Under the pieces are notes generated by a model. It did no database searches, had not been told where the DNA came from, and saw only the letters and a program-made list of their open reading frames with translations. The position numbers and the translations under genes were made by a program. This document shows positions 21,919 through 31,935 of a DNA stretch of 42,804 bases, in pieces. The first letter of the stretch is position 1; each line of letters opens with the position of its first letter. Source of the DNA: Sulfurovum sp. (GTDB lineage Bacteria; Campylobacterota; Campylobacteria; Campylobacterales; Sulfurovaceae); the NCBI RefSeq assembly GCF_015493435.1, contig NZ_WGDD01000025.1, positions 1 to 42,804 of the forward strand, given 5' to 3'.

Positions 21919-22009
21919 TAATTCTGTATGGAAATGATTAAATGATAGTAGGTGCTATACATACAGATAGTGTCTACAATCCAACCAAAAAATTATGAAA
22001 AGGATTGCG

Positions 22010-23968
22010 ATGAAAAGTATATTATTAAGTATATCACTTTTATCTTTTATAGGTTTACAAACACTTCATGCAGATGATCATGGAGATAAACATAAGACCT
22101 ATAAATTAAAAGTAAAACACGTACAAACAGGAACAGAGGTGGTGGTCAGGTGTAACAATGGCTACTATGAGAAAAAAACCGCTTCAGAAGAGGAAGACAA
22201 ACTCAAATTTAAAGTTCCAAAAGACGCAACATGTACACTTGAGGTTACAACGGATGAACCTTGTTATAAAAACATGAAGATGATACTAGATGGAGAAAAT
22301 AAAATTGATTTGAAAGATTTCTATACGAAATCATGTGAAGATATACCTTCACCTATGCCTTCACCTACACCCACTCTTCCACCTGATACAAATACTACAC
22401 CTCCAATGAATGGTAATTACATGCTCACCGCATGGAATGACTTAGGAATGCACTGTATGGACGGGAATGATTTTTCTGTATTCTCTGTACTTCCTCCATA
22501 CAATAACCTTCATGCACAACTCAAAGATAAAAATGGAGATTTGATCACTTCAGGTGTCACATTAACGTATCAAGCTACCACAGGAACAGATGGTCAAATC
22601 AATACTTCAAGTAGCGATAAGACTAATTTCTGGGACTTTAGCAATAAGCTCTTTCCAAATTCAAACCTTCAACCCGATGTTGGTCTACTTGGTAACAAAA
22701 CACCAAGTACTACACCACAGGCCTTGACATTTGATACCAAAGAAAAATGGTGGAAAGCAGAAGGTTTACCCCTTACCCCTTACAATGACAATGGGAGTAA
22801 AAATTACTATCCACTTATAAAAGTTACAGCTAAAGATAGTACAGGAAAGGTACTTGCCACAGCTAAAGTTGTACTACCTATCAGTGATGAAATGGATTGT
22901 AAGCGTTGTCACGCAACAAATTCACTTTCACCGAAAGCAAAACCAAATGCAGGATGGGTTGCTGACACAGACCCGGAAAAAGACTTCAAATTGAACGTAC
23001 TGCGTCTGCATGATGAACGTATGCCAAATGCAGTCAAAGATCATATGGCATCACTTAATGCAAAAGGATACACTTATGATGCCAAAGGACTTGAAGCAAC
23101 TGCAAGAACAGGCACACCTATCTTATGTGCAGCATGTCACAGTTCAAATGCACTGCCAGGTACAGGTGTAGATAATATTAAAGCTTTTACCACAGCTATT
23201 CATAGTTACCATGCTAAAGTCATCGATCCATATACTAACTTGACAATGAATGACAGTACCAACAGAGGTGCATGTTATGCTTGTCACCCAGGAGCAACAA
23301 CCAAGTGTCTCAGAGGTGCTATGGGAGATGCCAAAGATACAAACGGACAAAATATTATGCAGTGTCAAAGCTGCCATGGGCATATGAGCAATGTAGGAAA
23401 TGCCAACAGAAAAGGTTGGTTAGATCTACCAAACTGTCAAGCATGTCACCACAACGGTGTACGTGAAACATCGGCGATTGATCCAGCGACAAATACACTC
23501 AGACATGTGATAGACACAAAATTTGCAACCAATCTTAATACACCTGCGAGTGGCATAAGTCTTTACAGATTTAGTACAGGCCATGGTAAGTTACAATGTG
23601 AAGCCTGTCACGGTGCCACACATGCCATCTATCCTGCACACAATGCTGACAATATCTTAAGTGAAGGAATCCAGGGACATACAGGCACCATCGCAGAATG
23701 TGCTTCTTGTCACACCAGTGTACCAAACACAATTACAGGTGGACCTCACGGTATGCACCCCGTTGGACAGTCTTGGGTCAGCAGTCATAAACATGTGGCA
23801 GAAAAAAACCCAACACAATGTAAAGTCTGTCACGGACAAAACTACAGAGGGTCTGGCCTTTCTGAAATGTTCACAACACGTACACTCAGTGTTGAACATG
23901 GAAGTAAAACACTTCAAAAAGACCATCAGGTCTCTTGTTATGACTGTCATAATGGCCCAAATCCTTAA
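22010..23968 (+). CDS. secreted nine-haem c-type cytochrome with LGMHC domain
   Basis: A 652-residue exported multihaem cytochrome. I start at ATG 22010, with AAAAGGAT before it, because a Sec signal peptide (KSILLSISLLSFIGLQTLHA) follows. Residues about 22-105 form a small beta domain with three or four Cys, then a Pro/Thr-rich linker. A distinctive domain from about 128 begins YMLTAWNDLGMHCMDGNDF and runs to about 290. Nine CxxCH haem sites follow (about residues 297-647): CKRCH, CAACH, CYACH, CQSCH, CQACH, CEACH, CASCH, CKVCH, CYDCH. There are no longer-spaced haem motifs of the sulphite or nitrite reductase kind. It is a clear paralogue of the lipoprotein cytochrome encoded 3 kb away on the other strand, but is more AT-rich. 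An electron-transfer role is likely; the substrate is unknown. Confidence 0.88.
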   Translation: MKSILLSISLLSFIGLQTLHADDHGDKHKTYKLKVKHVQTGTEVVVRCNNGYYEKKTASEEEDKLKFKVPKDATCTLEVTTDEPCYKNMKMILDGENKIDLKDFYTKSCEDIPSPMPSPTPTLPPDTNTTPPMNGNYMLTAWNDLGMHCMDGNDFSVFSVLPPYNNLHAQLKDKNGDLITSGVTLTYQATTGTDGQINTSSSDKTNFWDFSNKLFPNSNLQPDVGLLGNKTPSTTPQALTFDTKEKWWKAEGLPLTPYNDNGSKNYYPLIKVTAKDSTGKVLATAKVVLPISDEMDCKRCHATNSLSPKAKPNAGWVADTDPEKDFKLNVLRLHDERMPNAVKDHMASLNAKGYTYDAKGLEATARTGTPILCAACHSSNALPGTGVDNIKAFTTAIHSYHAKVIDPYTNLTMNDSTNRGACYACHPGATTKCLRGAMGDAKDTNGQNIMQCQSCHGHMSNVGNANRKGWLDLPNCQACHHNGVRETSAIDPATNTLRHVIDTKFATNLNTPASGISLYRFSTGHGKLQCEACHGATHAIYPAHNADNILSEGIQGHTGTIAECASCHTSVPNTITGGPHGMHPVGQSWVSSHKHVAEKNPTQCKVCHGQNYRGSGLSEMFTTRTLSVEHGSKTLQKDHQVSCYDCHNGPNP

Positions 23969-24224: not shown

Positions 24225-24851
24225 ATGAAACTCCTTCTGCTGGAAGATGACCAGATATTGAGTGAAACACTGGAAGATTTTTTGCTCAGAGCCGGCTATG
24301 AGGTAGACCTGGCTTTGAGTGAAGAAGAAGCAGAAGAGTTAACCTTTGCCAGGAAGTATGACCTCTATCTTTTCGATATCAATCTCCCTACCGGCAACGG
24401 TCTGGATTTCCTGCGTGCGCTTCGCCATGCGGAAGATGAAACCCCCACCATATTCATTACCGCATTGACCGATATGAACTCTATGGCCCGTGGCTTTGAA
24501 CTTGATGCGATCGACTACATTAAAAAACCTTTTGAACCCGAAGAACTGCTGATACGCCTCAAGGCAAAATTCAAAGATGATCTTCTGTATTATGATGACA
24601 TACAGTACGATCCGAAGAACAATATACTGCGTAAAGCGGGAGAGGTCGTGCATATAGGGAAAGTTCCCTGTCGGGTCTTTGTCACACTGCTGAAGCATAG
24701 GGGCAATGTCGTCACACAGGAGATACTCTTTGAATGTCTTGAACACCCTTCGGGCAATGCGCTCAGGGTAGCCATTAACAAAGTGAAACAGAAGCTGGAT
24801 ATAGAGATCACCAATATCCGGGGAGAAGGATATATGCTTGAAGCGGTATGA
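24225..24851 (+). CDS. OmpR-family response regulator
   Basis: A 208-residue DNA-binding regulator. The receiver domain (about 1-115) has the acidic pocket LLEDD at about 6-9, the phosphoacceptor Asp51 in LFDINLP, a Thr in FITALTD and the conserved Lys in YIKKPFEPEELL, so it should accept phosphate normally. The C-terminal winged helix (about 120-208) ends in NKVKQKLDIEITNIRGEGYML, a typical recognition helix and wing. A TATAAT at 24205-24210 may be the -10 box, with a very short leader. It overlaps the sensor kinase gene by 14 bases. Being flanked by cytochrome genes, it probably controls them and the outer-membrane protein downstream. Confidence 0.93.
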   Translation: MKLLLLEDDQILSETLEDFLLRAGYEVDLALSEEEAEELTFARKYDLYLFDINLPTGNGLDFLRALRHAEDETPTIFITALTDMNSMARGFELDAIDYIKKPFEPEELLIRLKAKFKDDLLYYDDIQYDPKNNILRKAGEVVHIGKVPCRVFVTLLKHRGNVVTQEILFECLEHPSGNALRVAINKVKQKLDIEITNIRGEGYMLEAV

Positions 24852-25893
24852 AAAAGAATCACTCCTTAAAAACTTCTTTGTTTTCTTCTCTTTACTGGAA
24901 ATACTGCTGATCCTGCTTTTTACGGAGTTGTACCGTACAGAGAAGAGAGAATACCACCAAACACTTTTTCAAACGATGCAGGTGTGCAGTTACACATTGG
25001 AGTGTGAACAGTTCACGTTCGACTTTGTATCTAAAGAGAGCGGAAAGCCCAATACCCTATACGGAGAAAATGAACTCTACAGCTATTTTCAGATCCCCAA
25101 GTCGGACAAATTCTATATCAAAATCGCCTACCCTCCCGGTTCGTTACAGGCAGACATGCGAAAAATCATCTCTACGCTACTTGTCAAGTTCGTTCTGGCA
25201 ACACTGCTTTTGCTTCTGCTGGCACTCTTTTTCACTTTTTACAGTCTGAGGCCCATCAGGAAAGCGCTGCATCTGAATGACGAGTTCGTCAAAGACATAC
25301 TGCATGACTTCAACACGCCTGTTACCTCTATGATGCTTAATCTAAGAATGTTCAAAGAAGAGTGCGGGGAAAATATTTTTGTAAAAAGGATCTCCCACAG
25401 TATCGATACACTGCTTTTTTTGCAGAACAACCTCAAGAGCTTTCTGTATCATTCTCCTGTACAGAGCAGTGAAGTGAATATTGCCGGTTTAGCTGAAGAG
25501 CGTATGCAGTTGATGTCGAATGCCTATCCAAAAATATCCTTCTCCTTTATGCGAGGGAATATGCTTTTGAAGGCGACACAGCCTGAACTTCTTGCCCGGA
25601 TCCTTGACAACCTTTTGAGTAACGCTGCCAAATATAACAAAAGTGACGGGAAAGTGACAGTAAGGGTGGCAGGAGAGACGATTACTATCGAAGATACGGG
25701 CAAGGGCATCGAGAATGTAGACAAGGTGATGCAGCGTTACTACAAGGAACAGGAGCGCGGTCTTGGTATCGGGCTGCATATTGTTAAAAAGCTGGTCACG
25801 GAGCTGGGTATTGGAATGCGGATAAACTCCCACAAAAGCAAAGGTACAACAATAGTACTGGATTTCAGGAATCTTCCGGAGAAGCATACATGA
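24838..25893 (+). CDS. membrane sensor histidine kinase
   Basis: A 351-residue partner of the regulator just upstream. Two membrane segments (about 12-30 and 112-135) enclose a periplasmic sensor of about 80 residues that contains a C-x5-C pair (Cys50, Cys56) in VCSYTLECEQF. The phosphoacceptor His156 lies in KDILHDFNTPVTS, a variant H box. The ATPase domain has N box DNLLSNAAKYN (about 255), DTGKGI and GLGIGLHIVKKL, and ends in KGTTIVLDF. The start is apparently TTG at 24838, with GGAGAAGG about 8 bases before it, inside the regulator gene. The Cys pair is a candidate redox or metal sensor, by inference. Confidence 0.9.
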   Translation: MKRYEKESLLKNFFVFFSLLEILLILLFTELYRTEKREYHQTLFQTMQVCSYTLECEQFTFDFVSKESGKPNTLYGENELYSYFQIPKSDKFYIKIAYPPGSLQADMRKIISTLLVKFVLATLLLLLLALFFTFYSLRPIRKALHLNDEFVKDILHDFNTPVTSMMLNLRMFKEECGENIFVKRISHSIDTLLFLQNNLKSFLYHSPVQSSEVNIAGLAEERMQLMSNAYPKISFSFMRGNMLLKATQPELLARILDNLLSNAAKYNKSDGKVTVRVAGETITIEDTGKGIENVDKVMQRYYKEQERGLGIGLHIVKKLVTELGIGMRINSHKSKGTTIVLDFRNLPEKHT

Positions 25894-26240
25894 GAGCTGT
25901 GATCGTTGCGTTGTACATTACGCTGTACAGTGTGCCGCTTTGGGCAAAGAGTATAGATACCCAGATAGAAGCCATACAGAAAGCGCCCGTCAAGGAACGT
26001 TTCAAGCTGATGAATGCTCTCAAAAAGCGTCTGGTTAGGATGAAAGAGAAGGAACGGATCGAAGCACTTTCCCAACTGCGTTCAAGCACGAAAAGCAAAA
26101 GTGCGAAAAAGGCTATTGAAAAAGTGGAGAAAGATACAAAACGTATCTCAAGAGAGCATTTGGAGAATGAGATGGAGAGTCACATAGAAAACGAGGTAGA
26201 GGAGAACAATGCCGACCATAAAGGAGGTGATGATGATTAA
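25890..26240 (+). CDS. small secreted helical protein in two-component operon
   Basis: A 116-residue protein with a Sec signal peptide (about 1-19, ending PLWA) and a mature part that is almost entirely charged helix: IQKAPVKERFKLMNALKKRLVRMKEKERIEAL, then Ser/Lys-rich, then an acidic tail with HLENEMESHIENEVEENN. No Cys, no known domain. Its start overlaps the kinase stop (ATGA), with GGAG upstream, so it is translated with the sensor. By position and shape it could be a periplasmic accessory of the kinase, in the way CpxP, Spy or ZraP act, but the LTxxQ signature of that family is absent. Function unknown. Confidence 0.7.
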   Translation: MRAVIVALYITLYSVPLWAKSIDTQIEAIQKAPVKERFKLMNALKKRLVRMKEKERIEALSQLRSSTKSKSAKKAIEKVEKDTKRISREHLENEMESHIENEVEENNADHKGGDDD

Positions 26241-27042
26241 ACCGTTTTGTATAGCACTTTTGCTGACAGGGAGCCTATGTGCCAAGGAGATCACCGATAT
26301 GGATTTTGACGGTGTTCCGGATACACTTGACGAATGTCCGAATACCCCCTTTCTCCACCAGGTGAATGCCAGGGGATGTACGACGGTGGAATTGAGGCTT
26401 CCGGACGAAACCGACCATGACAGCATGACCATGACCCTTTCGAGCGGATATCAGAACAACGATGACCTGCCGAGCTATCTGAAGCAGTACAGAACCAAAG
26501 TGCAGCTCAACTACTACCACAATGACTGGGCCTACTCTGTCCGTACTTCCTACAATGCAAGAGAAGAGAATGAGGGCTTTGGCGATACGACACTCAAGGT
26601 CAGAAAACGTTTCAGTCCGAGTGATGACCTTCGACTCAATCTTGGCGTAGGGATTAAACTGCCGACCTATGACTATCCGGGTAACAGGACGGACTACAAG
26701 CTTTACAGTTCACTCTATTACTATCCTGCGGAAGGCCTTTCCTTTTTTGGAGGGTTCAATTATACTTTTATACAGGACAAAGAGGTTATGGGTCCACTGC
26801 AGAACAAAAGTAATTTCTTTGTGGGTACAGGGTATTTTTTCACGCATAGTCTCTATGCCAATCTGGGGTATGCCTATGAACAGAGCAAATATGTGGATGA
26901 ACATTCGGAACATTCTCTGTCAGTAACACTTTTTTACCAGATCACAGCTGAATGGTTCACTTCGGTATACTACAAACAGGACATTATGGATGAAGATTTC
27001 CATGATGAATTTTATTTCAACCTGGGATACAAGTTTTGGTAG
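26233..27042 (+). CDS. outer-membrane barrel with thrombospondin type 3 calcium motif
   Basis: About 269 residues. I choose ATG 26233, which has AGGAGG 5 bases upstream; an adjacent in-frame ATG at 26230 is closer. A signal peptide (IKPFCIALLLTGSLCA) is followed at once by DMDFDGVPDTLDECPNTPF, one thrombospondin type 3 / OmpA-linker calcium-binding repeat with its Cys partner in ARGC. The rest alternates as beta strands with many Tyr and Trp (KVQLNYYHNDWAYSVRTSY, LRLNLGVGIKLP, ANLGYAYEQS) and ends in NLGYKFW, a terminal aromatic residue typical of barrels. It overlaps the small helical gene by 8 bases, so it is in the two-component operon. It could be a porin or surface partner for the cytochromes; this is inference. 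Confidence 0.8.
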   Translation: MIKPFCIALLLTGSLCAKEITDMDFDGVPDTLDECPNTPFLHQVNARGCTTVELRLPDETDHDSMTMTLSSGYQNNDDLPSYLKQYRTKVQLNYYHNDWAYSVRTSYNAREENEGFGDTTLKVRKRFSPSDDLRLNLGVGIKLPTYDYPGNRTDYKLYSSLYYYPAEGLSFFGGFNYTFIQDKEVMGPLQNKSNFFVGTGYFFTHSLYANLGYAYEQSKYVDEHSEHSLSVTLFYQITAEWFTSVYYKQDIMDEDFHDEFYFNLGYKFW

Positions 27043-27120: not shown

Positions 27121-28878
27121 CTAATCTCCATTCGGTCCGTTGTGGCAATCGTAGCAGCTAACCTTGTGTCCTTTGGCGAAGTTCTTCTGTCCCCATTCGG
27201 TGGAGAAGGAACGGTTCATCCAGGTAGATGAGAGTGCAGAACCTCTATAGTCCTGGCCATGACACACCTTACATTGTGCCGCATTCTTCTCTGCCACATC
27301 TTCATGGCCCTTGACCCAGCTTTGACCTACAAGGTGCATGTCGTGCGGCCCTCCGGTAACGGTATTTGGCACGGAGGAGTGACAGGAGCTGCATTCTGCA
27401 ACGGTACCCGTATGTCCCTGGATCTGACTGCTTAGAATGTTGTCTGCATTATGTGCAGGGAATACGGCATGTGTTGCACCGTGACAGGCCTCACATTGCA
27501 ATTTTCCGTGTCCTTTGCTGTAACGATACAGGCTGAAACCCGTTGCCGGTGTATTCATGTTGGTCGCGAACTTTGTATCGATGACATGTCTGAGCGTATT
27601 GGTCGCAGGATCGATAGCAGAGAGCTCTCTTTTCCCGTCATGGTGGCATGCCTGACAGTTCGGTTCATGCAGCCATCCTTCACGGTTCTTGTCTCCCACT
27701 GCACTCATATTTCCATGACAGCTCTGGCACTGCATGGCATTGTTGCCGTTGGCATCCTTGGCATCCCCCATGGCACCTCTGAGACATTTGGTCTGTGCCC
27801 CCGGATGGCAGGTGTAACAGGCATTTCTGTTATTGATATCATTAAGCGGCAATCCGTTGAGCGGATCGATCACCTTGGCATGTTTGCCGTGAATGGCTGC
27901 CGTGAAAGCTACAATATTGTTGACCCCGGTATGAGGCAGGGCATTGGTTCTGTGGCAGGAGGCACAGAGAATGGCGGTGCCGCCATTTGCCGTGGCTTCA
28001 AGTCCTTTTGGATCGTAGTTGTATCCTTTCGACTGCAGGGCTGCAGCATTCTTTGTCACGGCATCCGGGTTCTTCTCATCATGCAGACGAAGGATGTTGA
28101 ACTTGTAGTCTTTTTCCGGGTCGGCATTGTTCACCCATCCCGCTTTCGGCTTTGCAGCGTTGCTGGATGCATTGCTCTGATGACAGCGCTTACAGTCCAT
28201 TTCGTCACTCACAGGCAATACGGTAGTGGCTTCGGAAAGAATATTTCCCTGTGCATCTTTTGCCACGACTTTGACAAGAGGATAGTAGTTCTTGCTTCCG
28301 TCATCATTGTACGGAGTAAGAGGAATACCTTCGGCCTCCCACCATTGGTGCGCAGCATTGAATGTCAGCTTCTGAGGTGTGGTGCTCGGTGTCTTGACAC
28401 CAGTAAGTCCGGTATCCTGTGCCAAAATAATACCAAAGAGCTGTTTACTGTGGCTCCAAAAGTTCGTTTTATCTGCACTTGAAGTATTCCATTTTCCGTC
28501 AGTACCCTGTACCGATTCATAGGTAAGAATAATCCCTGAAGTGACCAAATCACCCTTCTTGTCCTTTATCTGTGCATGTAGGTTGTTGTAGGGTGGCAGT
28601 ACAGAAAAGACGGAAAAGTCATTCCCGTCCATACAGTGCATTCCCAAATCATTCCAGGCAGTGAGCATGTATTTAAAGTTTGACTGTGGTGTGGTTGTCG
28701 GATTTGTATTTGGGTTATCTGATTCTTCTGAAGAGTCATTTGTTCCAGTTTCGTCATTGGAAGAAGTATCCGAATACGTACTGTTTTGTGTATCGGTATT
28801 TCCGCCACCGCTACCACCTCCGCATGCCACAAACAAGGGTGCTGCCAATATAAGTATCCATAGGGATTTTTTTTTCAT
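27121..28878 (-). CDS. nine-haem c-type cytochrome lipoprotein with LGMHC domain
   Basis: A 585-residue multihaem cytochrome. An upstream extension of 52 codons is open, but ATG 28878 has AAGGAGAG before it and is followed by a lipoprotein signal ending LFVAC, then a Gly-rich and a Ser/Asp/Thr-rich linker (about 20-65). The domain from about 72 begins YMLTAWNDLGMHCMDGNDF and matches the secreted paralogue almost residue for residue. Nine haem sites follow (about 229-580): CKRCH, CASCH, CYTCH, CQSCH, CQACH, CEACH, CSSCH, CKVCH, CYDCH. It lacks the extra N-terminal domain of the paralogue and is tethered by lipid instead. It is convergent with the two-component operon. It is richer in G+C than the paralogue, suggesting separate histories. 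Confidence 0.88.
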   Translation of the reverse strand: MKKKSLWILILAAPLFVACGGGSGGGNTDTQNSTYSDTSSNDETGTNDSSEESDNPNTNPTTTPQSNFKYMLTAWNDLGMHCMDGNDFSVFSVLPPYNNLHAQIKDKKGDLVTSGIILTYESVQGTDGKWNTSSADKTNFWSHSKQLFGIILAQDTGLTGVKTPSTTPQKLTFNAAHQWWEAEGIPLTPYNDDGSKNYYPLVKVVAKDAQGNILSEATTVLPVSDEMDCKRCHQSNASSNAAKPKAGWVNNADPEKDYKFNILRLHDEKNPDAVTKNAAALQSKGYNYDPKGLEATANGGTAILCASCHRTNALPHTGVNNIVAFTAAIHGKHAKVIDPLNGLPLNDINNRNACYTCHPGAQTKCLRGAMGDAKDANGNNAMQCQSCHGNMSAVGDKNREGWLHEPNCQACHHDGKRELSAIDPATNTLRHVIDTKFATNMNTPATGFSLYRYSKGHGKLQCEACHGATHAVFPAHNADNILSSQIQGHTGTVAECSSCHSSVPNTVTGGPHDMHLVGQSWVKGHEDVAEKNAAQCKVCHGQDYRGSALSSTWMNRSFSTEWGQKNFAKGHKVSCYDCHNGPNGD

Positions 28879-28897
28879 TTTTCTCTCCTTCAAATAA

Positions 28898-28909
28898 TAG
28901 AATATTCTA
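28898..28909. promoter_or_regulatory. 12-base palindrome before cytochrome lipoprotein gene
   Basis: TAGAATATTCTA is a perfect palindrome ending 19 bases before the cytochrome start. It could be an operator or overlap the transcription start. No matching copy was seen before the other cytochrome. Confidence 0.35.
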
Positions 28910-29030
28910 CATTCTAACCAATGAAGTGTTAGCACTTTATGTCCGACAGGAAAGAAAAAAAATACTGAGGCCGCAGCAAAATTGAAAAAAGGAGAGAGGA
29001 GAGTGCTTTCCTCATCTGAAAAGGGGAGGC

Positions 29031-29165
29031 TCATCGTTTGGCGACCACCGCCATCAATGATGACATATCAGCAGGTTTTGTCTTGACATGGCAGATACCG
29101 CACTTGTTGTCAAAGAGCGTTTCTGGATTTTGTGCAGTCGCAGTAGTGAACACACCTTGCGGCAT
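29031..29165 (-). pseudogene. fragment of a monohaem cytochrome c
   Basis: A short reading frame of 44 codons, upstream of the cytochrome lipoprotein on the same strand. It encodes ETLFDNKCGICHVKTKPAD followed by MSSLMAVVAKR and a stop. CGICH is a proper haem site in the usual helix context, but there is no signal peptide (an in-frame stop lies only seven codons upstream of the ATG) and the distal methionine region is missing. It reads as the middle of a broken class I or related cytochrome c. The lost parts are not visible nearby. Confidence 0.6.
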
Positions 29166-29208: not shown

Positions 29209-31935
29209 TCATTCTTCCTGGGACATTTTGGAAAGAATAGATTTTACCTGTTGCATCTCTTTGCCGAAACCTGCCCAATTTTCCTTTTGTAAGAATTGCA
29301 GTGCTTGATTATAATGTTTAAGTGCGGCTTTTGCCTCTTTGGACAGCACAGGCTTGTTCGCACTTTGTACTCCCATTGTTTGTACCGCTTCTTCTTGGGA
29401 TGAAGATATGTTAAACACGGCTTGAAGTGCTTCATCCAGGGTTCTTCTCATCGCAATTTTATCTTTGAAAGCTACGATCACTCTTTTGAGTTCCGGGATC
29501 TGACCCTGTTCTGACTGCAAATAGACAGGTTCCACATAAATGAAAGAGTTTTTAATAGGAATGACCAGCTGATTGCCTTTTATGACGCGTGAGCCTTCTT
29601 GCCCCCAAAGTGTGAGTTCGGCAGAGATTTCCGGTTTTTGGTTAATTCGCGCTTCTATTTGCATAGGTCCGTAAATAAGCTTCTCTTTAGGCAGTGTGTA
29701 GACTATCAAATCACCATAATGAGGCATATCACATCTTGCACACATCCATGCTACCATATTGTCCTTTTTTGAAGGATTCAGCGGCAGCATCAAAATATAC
29801 TCTTCACTTTTCATTTTAGGTAAACGCATAATAATATAATACGGAACCATCTTTTGCTGTCCGCCCTGATAGATCACATTTGGTATTTGCCAGTAATCTT
29901 CCTGATTATAAAACACTTTCGGGTCAGTCATGTGGTAGGCATTGTATATCTTCACCTGAATATTGAACAGATCTGTAGGATAACGGATATGTGCCTGTAA
30001 AAAGTCCGGCATTTCCTGAAACGGTTTGAATAGTTTTGGATAGATCTTTTCATAGGTCTGCAGCAATGCATCGTGAGGATTAACAACATAAAAAGAAACA
30101 GCACCGCTGTAGGCGTCAATCACTACTTTGACAGAGTTTTTAATGTAATTTACCCCTCTTCTTATTGGGTTGCGTGAGAGCGGTTCTGAGTAAGGATACA
30201 TATTGCTGGTTGTGTAGGCATCCTGTATCCAGTACACTTTTCCATCTTTGCCAACTACACTGTATGGTTGTCTGTCATAGGCAAGAAAAGGTGCCAGCGT
30301 TGCAGCGCGCTCGGTAATATTTCTATACAACATCAGACGACTTTTATCACTCAAATAAGTTGTAAAAAGAATGTTGATATCAGAAAATTTCCACGCATAG
30401 ACAAGGCGTTTAAAAAGAGAAGCAATTTGTACCCCTCCATTTCCTCTGTAGTGAGTATAAACGTTCTTTGCCCCTTTTGGATAATCAAATTCTTTTGCCT
30501 TTGTATTGACCAGAACAAATTGGTCTGTTGATTGACCGTAATAGATGCCCATTTGCTTTAGTTTTAAAGGTACACTGCTCACAGGCGGAATGTCTTTGAC
30601 GATAAGATTTGGCATACCGTTTGAAGTTATTTCATTGACCGGATTCATGACAATTCCGTACCCATGAGTATATATGAGATGTTGATTGACCCATGTTTGT
30701 GCTCTGTAGGGTATCTCTGAAGCTGGAAGCTCTCTTGCGCCAAGAGCCACTTCAGTGTATTTGTCAAAATGATAACGATCCACTTCTATATTTTTAAAAT
30801 CATAGTAAAGACGGATCTCCTGGAGTTGTCTATAGGTTTGTATCAGAGGTCTTCTGTCCCATAGGCGGATATTTTTGATGGTGTTATGATTTTCTAAAAT
30901 ATCCTGGTAGCTTGCATTGTTGTCTGCTGCAAAAGGTTTGACTTGAATCTTATCGAGCCCATAGGCTTTTGTGGTAAATTTTATGTTGTTTGCAATATAA
31001 GGAGTCTCTTTTTGTAATTCGGTTGGTTTTACAATGTATTTCTCAATCAGAGTGGGATATATCCAGACAAATCCTATAAGAACAAGCAGCCAAAAAAGCA
31101 GTGCCCCAATAACAACCTGCATTTTTTTATAGAGTGGATAAAAGAACAGAAGCAGCGTAACAACGGCTGTCATAACAATAATAGTTTTGTAAGCAGGAAT
31201 TTGTGCATGCACATCCATATACGAAGCCCCGTAGGCAACACCATTGGACGAGTAAAGGAGATTATAAAGTTGTATTATAAAATAGGCACAGACACCCAAG
31301 GCAAAAAAAGCACCTAAAAGCAAAACATGGTTTTTTGCTTTTGTTTCCACTTGAAGTTTACGCTCTTGGTAGTTAAAAATATTGTGCGTATAATAAAAAA
31401 GCAGAACGAAAAAAGTAGTCAAAACGAGCATGGTAAAATACCAGTTTAGGACAATTTGATAGACAGGCAGCTTAAAGAGGTAAAATCCTACATCTTTACC
31501 TAAAACAGGTTCCTGCAGATGAAAAGAAGTGGGATGCAGAAATTTTAAAAAATCGATCCAATACTCGGATGCAGAAGAGCCCATAATAAGCCCAAACAAT
31601 ACAACTATAGTACCCCATGCTAAAATGGAGAATTTTTTATGGCTTAGAAATGAAAGCTTTTGCCGTAAATCATTATCAAGAAAAGCAATAGAGCTCTGAT
31701 GCTCTTCATGTTTATGATACGCATAATAGAGATTAAGCCCAGCGAACAAAAGAAAAAGAAAAAAGAACAGAACAAAAGAGAGAATCTGTGCTAAAAGATT
31801 GGTATCAAAGACTGAGCTGTATCCCAAATGTTTAAACCACAGCCAATCCCCGTAATATCCTACAAATAAGCCAAATAGAGAGATAAATACTATTAATAAG
31901 GCTAATGCAACCATTCCCTTTATCGTTTTGTTCAT
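29209..31935 (-). CDS. UPF0182 family large membrane protein
   Basis: A 908-residue protein of the UPF0182 (COG1615) family, whose function is not known. The N-terminal third has about seven membrane segments (for example residues 8-28, 48-70, 104-123, 160-182, 205-224, 253-270 and 274-292). A large outside domain follows, with the family-type stretches DRRPLIQTYRQLQEIRLYYDF, HLIYTHGYGIVMNPVNEI and DAYSGAVSFYVVNPHDALL. The C-terminal helical tail ends near ILSKMSQEE. AGGAAAAC precedes ATG 31935. It stands apart from its neighbours within the accessory block. Length and order match the family; there are no frameshifts. Confidence 0.9.
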   Translation of the reverse strand: MNKTIKGMVALALLIVFISLFGLFVGYYGDWLWFKHLGYSSVFDTNLLAQILSFVLFFFLFLLFAGLNLYYAYHKHEEHQSSIAFLDNDLRQKLSFLSHKKFSILAWGTIVVLFGLIMGSSASEYWIDFLKFLHPTSFHLQEPVLGKDVGFYLFKLPVYQIVLNWYFTMLVLTTFFVLLFYYTHNIFNYQERKLQVETKAKNHVLLLGAFFALGVCAYFIIQLYNLLYSSNGVAYGASYMDVHAQIPAYKTIIVMTAVVTLLLFFYPLYKKMQVVIGALLFWLLVLIGFVWIYPTLIEKYIVKPTELQKETPYIANNIKFTTKAYGLDKIQVKPFAADNNASYQDILENHNTIKNIRLWDRRPLIQTYRQLQEIRLYYDFKNIEVDRYHFDKYTEVALGARELPASEIPYRAQTWVNQHLIYTHGYGIVMNPVNEITSNGMPNLIVKDIPPVSSVPLKLKQMGIYYGQSTDQFVLVNTKAKEFDYPKGAKNVYTHYRGNGGVQIASLFKRLVYAWKFSDINILFTTYLSDKSRLMLYRNITERAATLAPFLAYDRQPYSVVGKDGKVYWIQDAYTTSNMYPYSEPLSRNPIRRGVNYIKNSVKVVIDAYSGAVSFYVVNPHDALLQTYEKIYPKLFKPFQEMPDFLQAHIRYPTDLFNIQVKIYNAYHMTDPKVFYNQEDYWQIPNVIYQGGQQKMVPYYIIMRLPKMKSEEYILMLPLNPSKKDNMVAWMCARCDMPHYGDLIVYTLPKEKLIYGPMQIEARINQKPEISAELTLWGQEGSRVIKGNQLVIPIKNSFIYVEPVYLQSEQGQIPELKRVIVAFKDKIAMRRTLDEALQAVFNISSSQEEAVQTMGVQSANKPVLSKEAKAALKHYNQALQFLQKENWAGFGKEMQQVKSILSKMSQEE

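Follow-up and report, generated by a model that had tools for sequence, protein, structure and literature searches.

Sulfurovum and Sulfurimonas (Campylobacterota) are common sulfur-oxidising chemolithotrophs. The extracellular electron route of Campylobacterota is poorly defined, and PMC11748539 describes a Sulfurimonas lacking a complete porin-cytochrome set. Close known systems include exported multihaem c-type cytochromes of the MtrC type. In MtrC, a CX8C disulfide in domain III controls flavin binding, and similar results are given for OmcA, MtrF and UndA (PMC4486940, in the sections used). In filaments of OmcS, one of the twelve axial His is supplied by the neighbouring molecule (PMC6584659; also PMC9473688, each in the passages on ligation). 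Deletion of MCA0421, an outer-membrane cytochrome gene of Methylococcus capsulatus, lowers current according to the relevant portion of PMC6281684. Here we describe a nine-haem cytochrome family which may be relevant to the Campylobacterota route, and the domain which stands at its front.

The window, a stretch of 42,804 bases, is an entire contig of a Sulfurovum genome and carries two such genes, cytochrome A and cytochrome B (Table 1). For cytochrome B the likelier start is the ATG at 28878, after GAAGGAGAG. An earlier note on this DNA had placed the domain, named here after its LGMHC motif, at 22391-22897 of cytochrome A, ahead of the first haem. The end and the order hold, since the domain finishes at 22897 and the first CXXCH begins at 22898, whereas the start was set 27 bases early and belongs at Tyr 22418. 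The two copies had also been called nearly identical. This is true of the first 35 residues, LGMHC included, where 34/35 are the same; over the whole domain the identity is 115/159 residues (72%), equal to that of the haem region (257/356, 72%), and the LGMHC domain is thus not specially conserved between A and B. The likeness of the two domains is not due to chance, as the domain of A matched copy B at E = 1.4e-85 in a search within its own genome, where no third copy was found up to E = 10. With 67.5% DNA identity overall and the same codon at 178/372 identical residues, A and B are an old pair maintained by selection. In a tree of 79 proteins they fell in different supported clades of Sulfurovaceae-like sequences. 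The extra N-terminal segment of A (22082-22339) is 52% identical over 93 residues to the N-terminus of the L035 protein, its sole match among 80 loci, and by eye it also resembles the N-terminus of the five-haem paralogue L018.

Table 1. Coordinates of features in the window and, where a locus is named, in the loci of relatives (A2, 79-row alignment)
Feature	Position	Strand	Remarks
Cytochrome A	21995..23968	+	657 aa with nine CXXCH; signal peptide (no lipobox by eye), then an extra N-terminal segment, the LGMHC domain and the haem region
LGMHC domain of A	22418..22897	+	160 residues, starts at Tyr 22418; predicted Ig-like beta-sandwich
LGMHC arm	22445..22495	+	domain residues 10-26; low confidence alone, better in full protein
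LGMHC His	22451..22453	+	residue 12 of the domain, 153 of the protein; putative distal ligand to one of haems 4-7
LGMHC Cys	22454..22456	+	residue 13 of the domain, 154 of the protein; putative partner in a disulfide
Haem motif 1 CKRCH	22898..22912	+	
Invariant His 198 (A2)	23009..23011	+	kept in five-haem paralogues
Haem motif 2 CAACH	23126..23140	+	
Invariant His pair 262 and 265 (A2)	23201..23212	+	kept in five-haem paralogues
Haem motif 3 CYACH	23273..23287	+	
TKCLRGAMG Cys	23306..23308	+	A2 residue 297, protein residue 438; before haem 4
Haem motif 4 CQSCH	23363..23377	+	
Haem motif 5 CQACH	23435..23449	+	
Invariant His 389 (A2)	23582..23584	+	lost with haems 4-7
Haem motif 6 CEACH	23597..23611	+	
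Invariant His 402 (A2)	23621..23623	+	lost with haems 4-7
Haem motif 7 CASCH	23699..23713	+	
Invariant His 444 (A2)	23747..23749	+	lost with haems 4-7
Invariant His 447 (A2)	23756..23758	+	kept in five-haem paralogues
Invariant His 457 (A2)	23786..23788	+	kept in five-haem paralogues
Haem motif 8 CKVCH	23819..23833	+	
Haem motif 9 CYDCH	23936..23950	+	
Response regulator	24225-24851	+	PF00072
Histidine kinase	24838-25893	+	HisKA and HATPase_c
277-aa protein	26209..27042	+	TSP_3 repeat at Pfam cut-off; conserved neighbour
Cytochrome B, ORF	27121..29034	-	nine CXXCH
Cytochrome B, likelier start	27121..28878	-	lipobox LFVACG, probable lipoprotein
LGMHC domain of B	28195..28671	-	second copy
Five-haem paralogue L018	964-2379	-	
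Five-haem paralogue L019	910-2379	-	
Five-haem paralogue L139	994-2109	+	
Giant multihaem proteins, L122	889-3867 and 12111-15887	+	related in haem region and second half of domain
Type 2 protein, L123	713-3136	+	808 aa, seven CXXCH, ELGMHC, CC pair
Type 2 protein, L124	754-3177	-	808 aa, seven CXXCH, ELGMHC, CC pair

The domain was present in 14 of 298 Campylobacterota genomes, the source genome included, and in 2 of 398 Pseudomonadota genomes (phylum inferred), one of the two being the search centre. A pattern search of genome contigs gave at least 592 matches, at least 574 of which encode a relative; the best 80 of these at least 574 relatives were kept and came from Campylobacterota, Betaproteobacteria and Gammaproteobacteria, methanotrophs among them. 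LGMHC was found in all 80 kept relatives, one of the two search patterns containing most of the motif. In nine-haem members with a visible N-terminus the domain stands in front of the haem region, and in the 993-aa protein of L122 only its second half is recognisable. No occurrence of the domain without haem was seen among the first 100 loci: the two LGMHC ORFs without haem (in L053 and, as second ORF, in L007) both stop at a contig or locus edge. The domain-less ORFs of L134, L143, L175 and L190 start 12 bases or fewer from a contig end. Searches of viral contigs and of plasmids found no relative. The LGMHC domain stands at the head of a family of nine-haem cytochromes that occurs in Campylobacterota and in some Beta- and Gammaproteobacteria. 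In the midpoint-rooted tree of 79 proteins, the rows from Pseudomonadota are nested within those from Campylobacterota, some of them beside Sulfuricurvum, a pattern suggestive of lateral transfer. Three nine-haem copies lie within 12 kb in one genome (G191:C1 2371603-2383541; L020, L016 and L009), and in genomes under the same genus label (g48) there are two in G288 and three each in G718 and G773.

No Pfam model matched the 169-residue domain above cut-off (best Big_1, 15.9 bits against 34.9), no NCBIfam model matched it, and a PDB profile search gave nothing convincing for the domain (best E = 0.13) or for the haem region (best E = 0.054), the best match in both cases being a photosynthetic reaction-centre cytochrome. 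The haem region did score 50.4 and 53.5 bits against Pfam PF22113 (MtrC/MtrF domains II/IV; cut-off 30) and also passed PF14522. No paper on the LGMHC domain was among those listed when one paper library was searched by motif strings and by multihaem and nine-haem topic. The LGMHC domain is genuine, and none of the libraries searched has a curated family for it; the match to a characterised domain which the earlier note had named as grounds for giving up its idea did not appear in Pfam, NCBIfam or PDB sequence searches.

Structure prediction gave a mean pLDDT of 82 for the full protein (79 rows) and 86 for the domain alone (85 rows), and in both models the domain is beta-rich with a helix at residues 71-78. 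Foldseek matches of the domain-only model were to Ig-like domains at modest significance (best E = 8.8e-4). VIA-align likewise returned Ig-like domains, with scores too low to stand out (Z up to 6.8 over 98 aligned residues, rmsd 3.1), and as nearly all of the rows shown belonged to antibodies or to Ig-like domains of other kinds, with Z values tied, the name of the fold rests on the common arrangement. Among the top 50 Foldseek matches of the domain alone, MtrC was the sole multihaem cytochrome, with two entries (4lm8 at rank 33, E = 0.063); the 50 VIA-align rows shown were without MtrC, which excludes nothing. The LGMHC domain is predicted to be an Ig-like beta-sandwich. A predicted folded sandwich that heads the nine-haem members with a visible N-terminus bears out the earlier view that this region is too conserved to be a linker. 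Conservation above that of the rest of the protein was considered separately and rejected, mean column conservation being 0.74 in the domain, 0.69 in the haem region and 0.67 in the haem region minus the CXXCH residues.

The conserved residues were examined in an alignment of 79 rows and 516 residues, filtered for LGMHC and nine CXXCH. Outside the CXXCH motifs, nine His are invariant in all 79 rows (positions 12, 198, 262, 265, 389, 402, 444, 447 and 457), the other His reaching conservation of 0.92 at most, and two non-haem Cys are invariant, C13 and C297, which are 284 residues apart. Invariance of His12 and Cys13 in this alignment follows from selection of the rows by LGMHC; that of the other eight His and of Cys297 does not. 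In a domain alignment of 85 rows, most of them found or kept by the motif, Trp6, His12 and Asp18 are present in 85/85 and Cys13 in at least 90%. The Cys and His, for which a lack of conservation in homologues would have spoken against the earlier note, are conserved.

Which of the haems the LGMHC His might serve is indicated by three five-haem paralogues (L018, L019 and L139), all found by the haem region and two of them also weak matches of the domain. These proteins keep haems 1, 2, 3, 8 and 9 together with His 198, 262, 265, 447 and 457, and are without haems 4-7, His 12, 389, 402 and 444, and Cys297. The joint absence of the LGMHC His and haems 4-7 makes it probable that this His serves one of these four as distal ligand. 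The loop itself is not alignable in the three proteins, where the aligner set the lipobox Cys at position 13. They have two other invariant Cys, one just before an F-S/T-L motif and one at the position of Gly116 of the nine-haem proteins, which suggests from the alignment that the loop may be tied to its own domain by a rewired disulfide. In overall appearance they look like the nine-haem protein minus haems 4-7. All three may derive from one deletion, and the joint loss may then be a single event, which weighs against the ligand assignment.

The two Cys show a parallel pattern. In 55 distinct ORFs from the haem-region and five-haem searches, made with no motif filter, LGMHC and CLRG were both present in 46, neither was present in five (L138, L166, L139, L144 and L147), and four had CLRG but were truncated N-terminally by the end of a contig; motifs were scored by regular expression with near variants counted as absent, and the set overlaps the 79-row alignment strongly and is not independent of it. 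No ORF of this set with both regions visible has just one of the two motifs, and a recount with ORFs merged by containment gave the same numbers. L138 is the gene of L015 and L166 the 993-aa gene of L122. Since C13 and C297 are mostly kept or lost together, a disulfide between them is suggested. In the L015 protein, whose domain is 40% identical, the nine haems and all nine His are retained, H12 among them, but the two Cys are replaced, C13 by Ala and C297 by Asp.

The predicted structures bear on the position of the loop. The mean scores of residue blocks 11-20 and 21-30 rose from 53 to 75 and from 59 to 87 when the domain was modelled within the full protein rather than by itself; of the 12 blocks over residues 31-150, all 12 reached 90 in the full model and 10 did so in the domain-only one. 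By DSSP, residues 12-13 and 22-23 are in strands or bridges in the full model only. The rise in loop score indicates that its predicted order comes from the haem region. Residues 291-310 around C297 were modelled at just 60-68.

From these patterns and the model we infer that the LGMHC domain is the N-terminal beta-sandwich of exported nine-haem c-type cytochromes, from which the LGMHC loop would leave as an arm and dock on the haem domain. There, one of haems 4-7 (most likely haem 4) would have the LGMHC His as its distal axial ligand, and the LGMHC Cys would form a disulfide with the TKCLRGAMG Cys just before haem 4, locking the arm. The domain would then be a structural part of the electron wire and not a separate metal or substrate site. 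We give this reading a probability of about 0.55. The guess of an extra haem ligand made from the window is supported by the match of nine haems to nine invariant His and by the joint loss in the five-haem paralogues. The selection of the 79 rows by LGMHC, with the invariance of H12 and C13 which it brings, counts against the proposal, as do two groups of divergent relatives. The first is from Methylobacter (L122), where the 993-aa relative has nine CXXCH but is without His12 and both Cys, with Phe at 198 in the alignment, and its 1259-aa neighbour has eight CXXCH, Gln at 12 and Asn at 389, haem 2 being missing. These proteins may use other ligands or have an open haem, and they fall outside what the ligand model explains. 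In the longer one, which also contains a PKD domain, haem motif 2 is by eye replaced by CAGHH. The second group, the type 2 proteins of L123 and L124, argues against the disulfide, as LGMHC is kept while Trp, not Cys, is aligned at 297. They have a GGCxVGRDVHA segment after haem 3, and our guess is that its Cys is the equivalent of C297. In L123 the type 2 gene lies beside a four-CXXCH ORF which by eye is NapC/NrfH-like.

The alternative which survives best, although we consider it unlikely, is that the arm is only a structural cap, packed against the haem domain and shielding one of the haems, the His serving in packing or hydrogen bonding with no ligation of iron. Low loop confidence alone and higher confidence in the full protein are equally expected from such a cap, and the Methylobacter nine-haem relative manages without the LGMHC His. 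It would nevertheless make the nine-to-nine count a coincidence and leave one haem without a conserved distal His, and L015 keeps His12 while both Cys are gone.

Less probable again is that the Cys-His pair and the conserved Asp residues bind a metal, for example copper or zinc, or a substrate; metal and substrate binding had been among the first guesses from the window. Conserved H, C and D do occur within one loop, and the Helicobacter pylori copper protein CrdA was a weak Foldseek match (rank 8, E = 0.025). The Ig-like matches are, however, generic, L015 has lost the Cys and kept the His, and metal or substrate binding would not account for losses that coincide with those of haems 4-7 and of C297. 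The pocket which the earlier note proposed to look for at the Cys-His pair is not indicated in preformed shape, the loop being of low confidence in the isolated domain.

We regard as improbable, somewhat more so than metal binding, that C13-C297 is a redox switch like the domain III disulfide of MtrC, with the His as ligand or bystander. The precedent of MtrC and its relatives and the common retention or loss of the two Cys in the ORF sets examined are in its favour; against it, the proposed bond spans two domains, with no CX8-15C inside one beta domain, and nothing in the nine-haem family points to flavin. Ligation of a haem in a neighbouring molecule, giving polymers or filaments in Campylobacterota and methanotrophs, has the precedent of OmcS and an arm not confidently ordered within its own domain, and if true would make the LGMHC family a further case of OmcS/OmcE-type intermolecular ligation, but it is the least probable reading, as the single-chain model already lifts the confidence of the arm and a lipobox-like motif in 57/88 members (crude pattern) fits a membrane-anchored monomer.

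By this same pattern, applied to 88 nine-haem ORFs, cytochrome B is positive and cytochrome A negative, and many members of the family look like lipoproteins. The putative location of the family is the cell surface, and extracellular electron transfer is a candidate role. The genes of A and B are separated by those of a response regulator and a histidine kinase, by a small ORF and by the gene of the 277-aa TSP_3 protein, which is probably an outer-membrane beta-barrel (barrel by eye). Relatives of these four were found in 36, 25, 14 and 17 of the 80 loci respectively, many of which are too short to show neighbours, and the response-regulator and kinase counts take in unrelated regulators anywhere in the locus. 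All four occur together in 13/80 loci, all Sulfurovum-like or otherwise Campylobacterota. Cytochrome B is convergent with the barrel-like gene, an arrangement also seen in L027, L042 and L043. Within the locus DNA, none of the 80 loci has another ORF with more than two CXXCH, and so there is no MtrA-like decahaem gene next door. Similarly, no porin-cytochrome module was recognised by Pfam among ten neighbours in Methylomonas LW13 (L085) and Rhodoferax (L054), two of the ten being without a match. An ORF with two CXXCH is present in 7/80 loci. In three loci a small two-CXXCH protein is encoded directly downstream of the nine-haem gene (L022 6635-7156, L034 3809-4294 and L039 6602-7078, all on the + strand), a possible electron partner. 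On the other side of cytochrome B, 29209-31935 encodes a UPF0182 protein (Pfam PF03699, 938 bits).

The LGMHC proteins offer a nine-haem family that can be searched for elsewhere, and a proposed, testable haem cap in which specific residues are available for mutation. If the ligand reading is true, domain swaps between family members must retain the arm, and the five-haem paralogues would show how a wire is shortened, four haems and four ligands being removed together.

With respect to known systems, the giant methanotroph cytochromes of L122, which may be linked to the cytochrome c553O group of M. capsulatus, share a homologous haem region and the second half of the domain with the LGMHC family. 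They differ in their size (993 and 1259 aa), in being without the LGMHC His and both Cys, and in the PKD domain of the longer protein. The likeness to MtrC, MtrF, OmcA and UndA lies in an exported multihaem c-type cytochrome with a beta domain before the haem domain, and in a haem region which, in both A and B, passes the PF22113 cut-off. NCBIfam TIGR03507 (OmcA/MtrC family decahaem) matched neither cytochrome A nor B up to E = 1. MtrC, OmcA and UndA have ten haems (eleven in UndA) and two beta domains as given in the structural part of PMC4486940, whereas members of the LGMHC family carry nine haems with a single predicted beta domain. In the full model one beta-sandwich stands before the haem region; the MtrC/OmcA type has two Greek-key beta domains flanking two haem domains. 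The invariant Cys differ too. Those of the LGMHC family lie in different domains, and no CX8-15C pair is found among the invariant non-haem Cys of the 516 aligned residues, while in the MtrC/OmcA type the CX8-15C pair lies within domain III. OmcS and OmcE of Geobacter were absent from the PDB sequence-search matches. The proposed resemblance to them, as far as the cited passages on OmcS and OmcE describe it, lies in a haem being completed by a His which does not belong to the local haem segment; in OmcS and OmcE this His comes from another molecule, whereas in the LGMHC family it would most likely come from the same chain.
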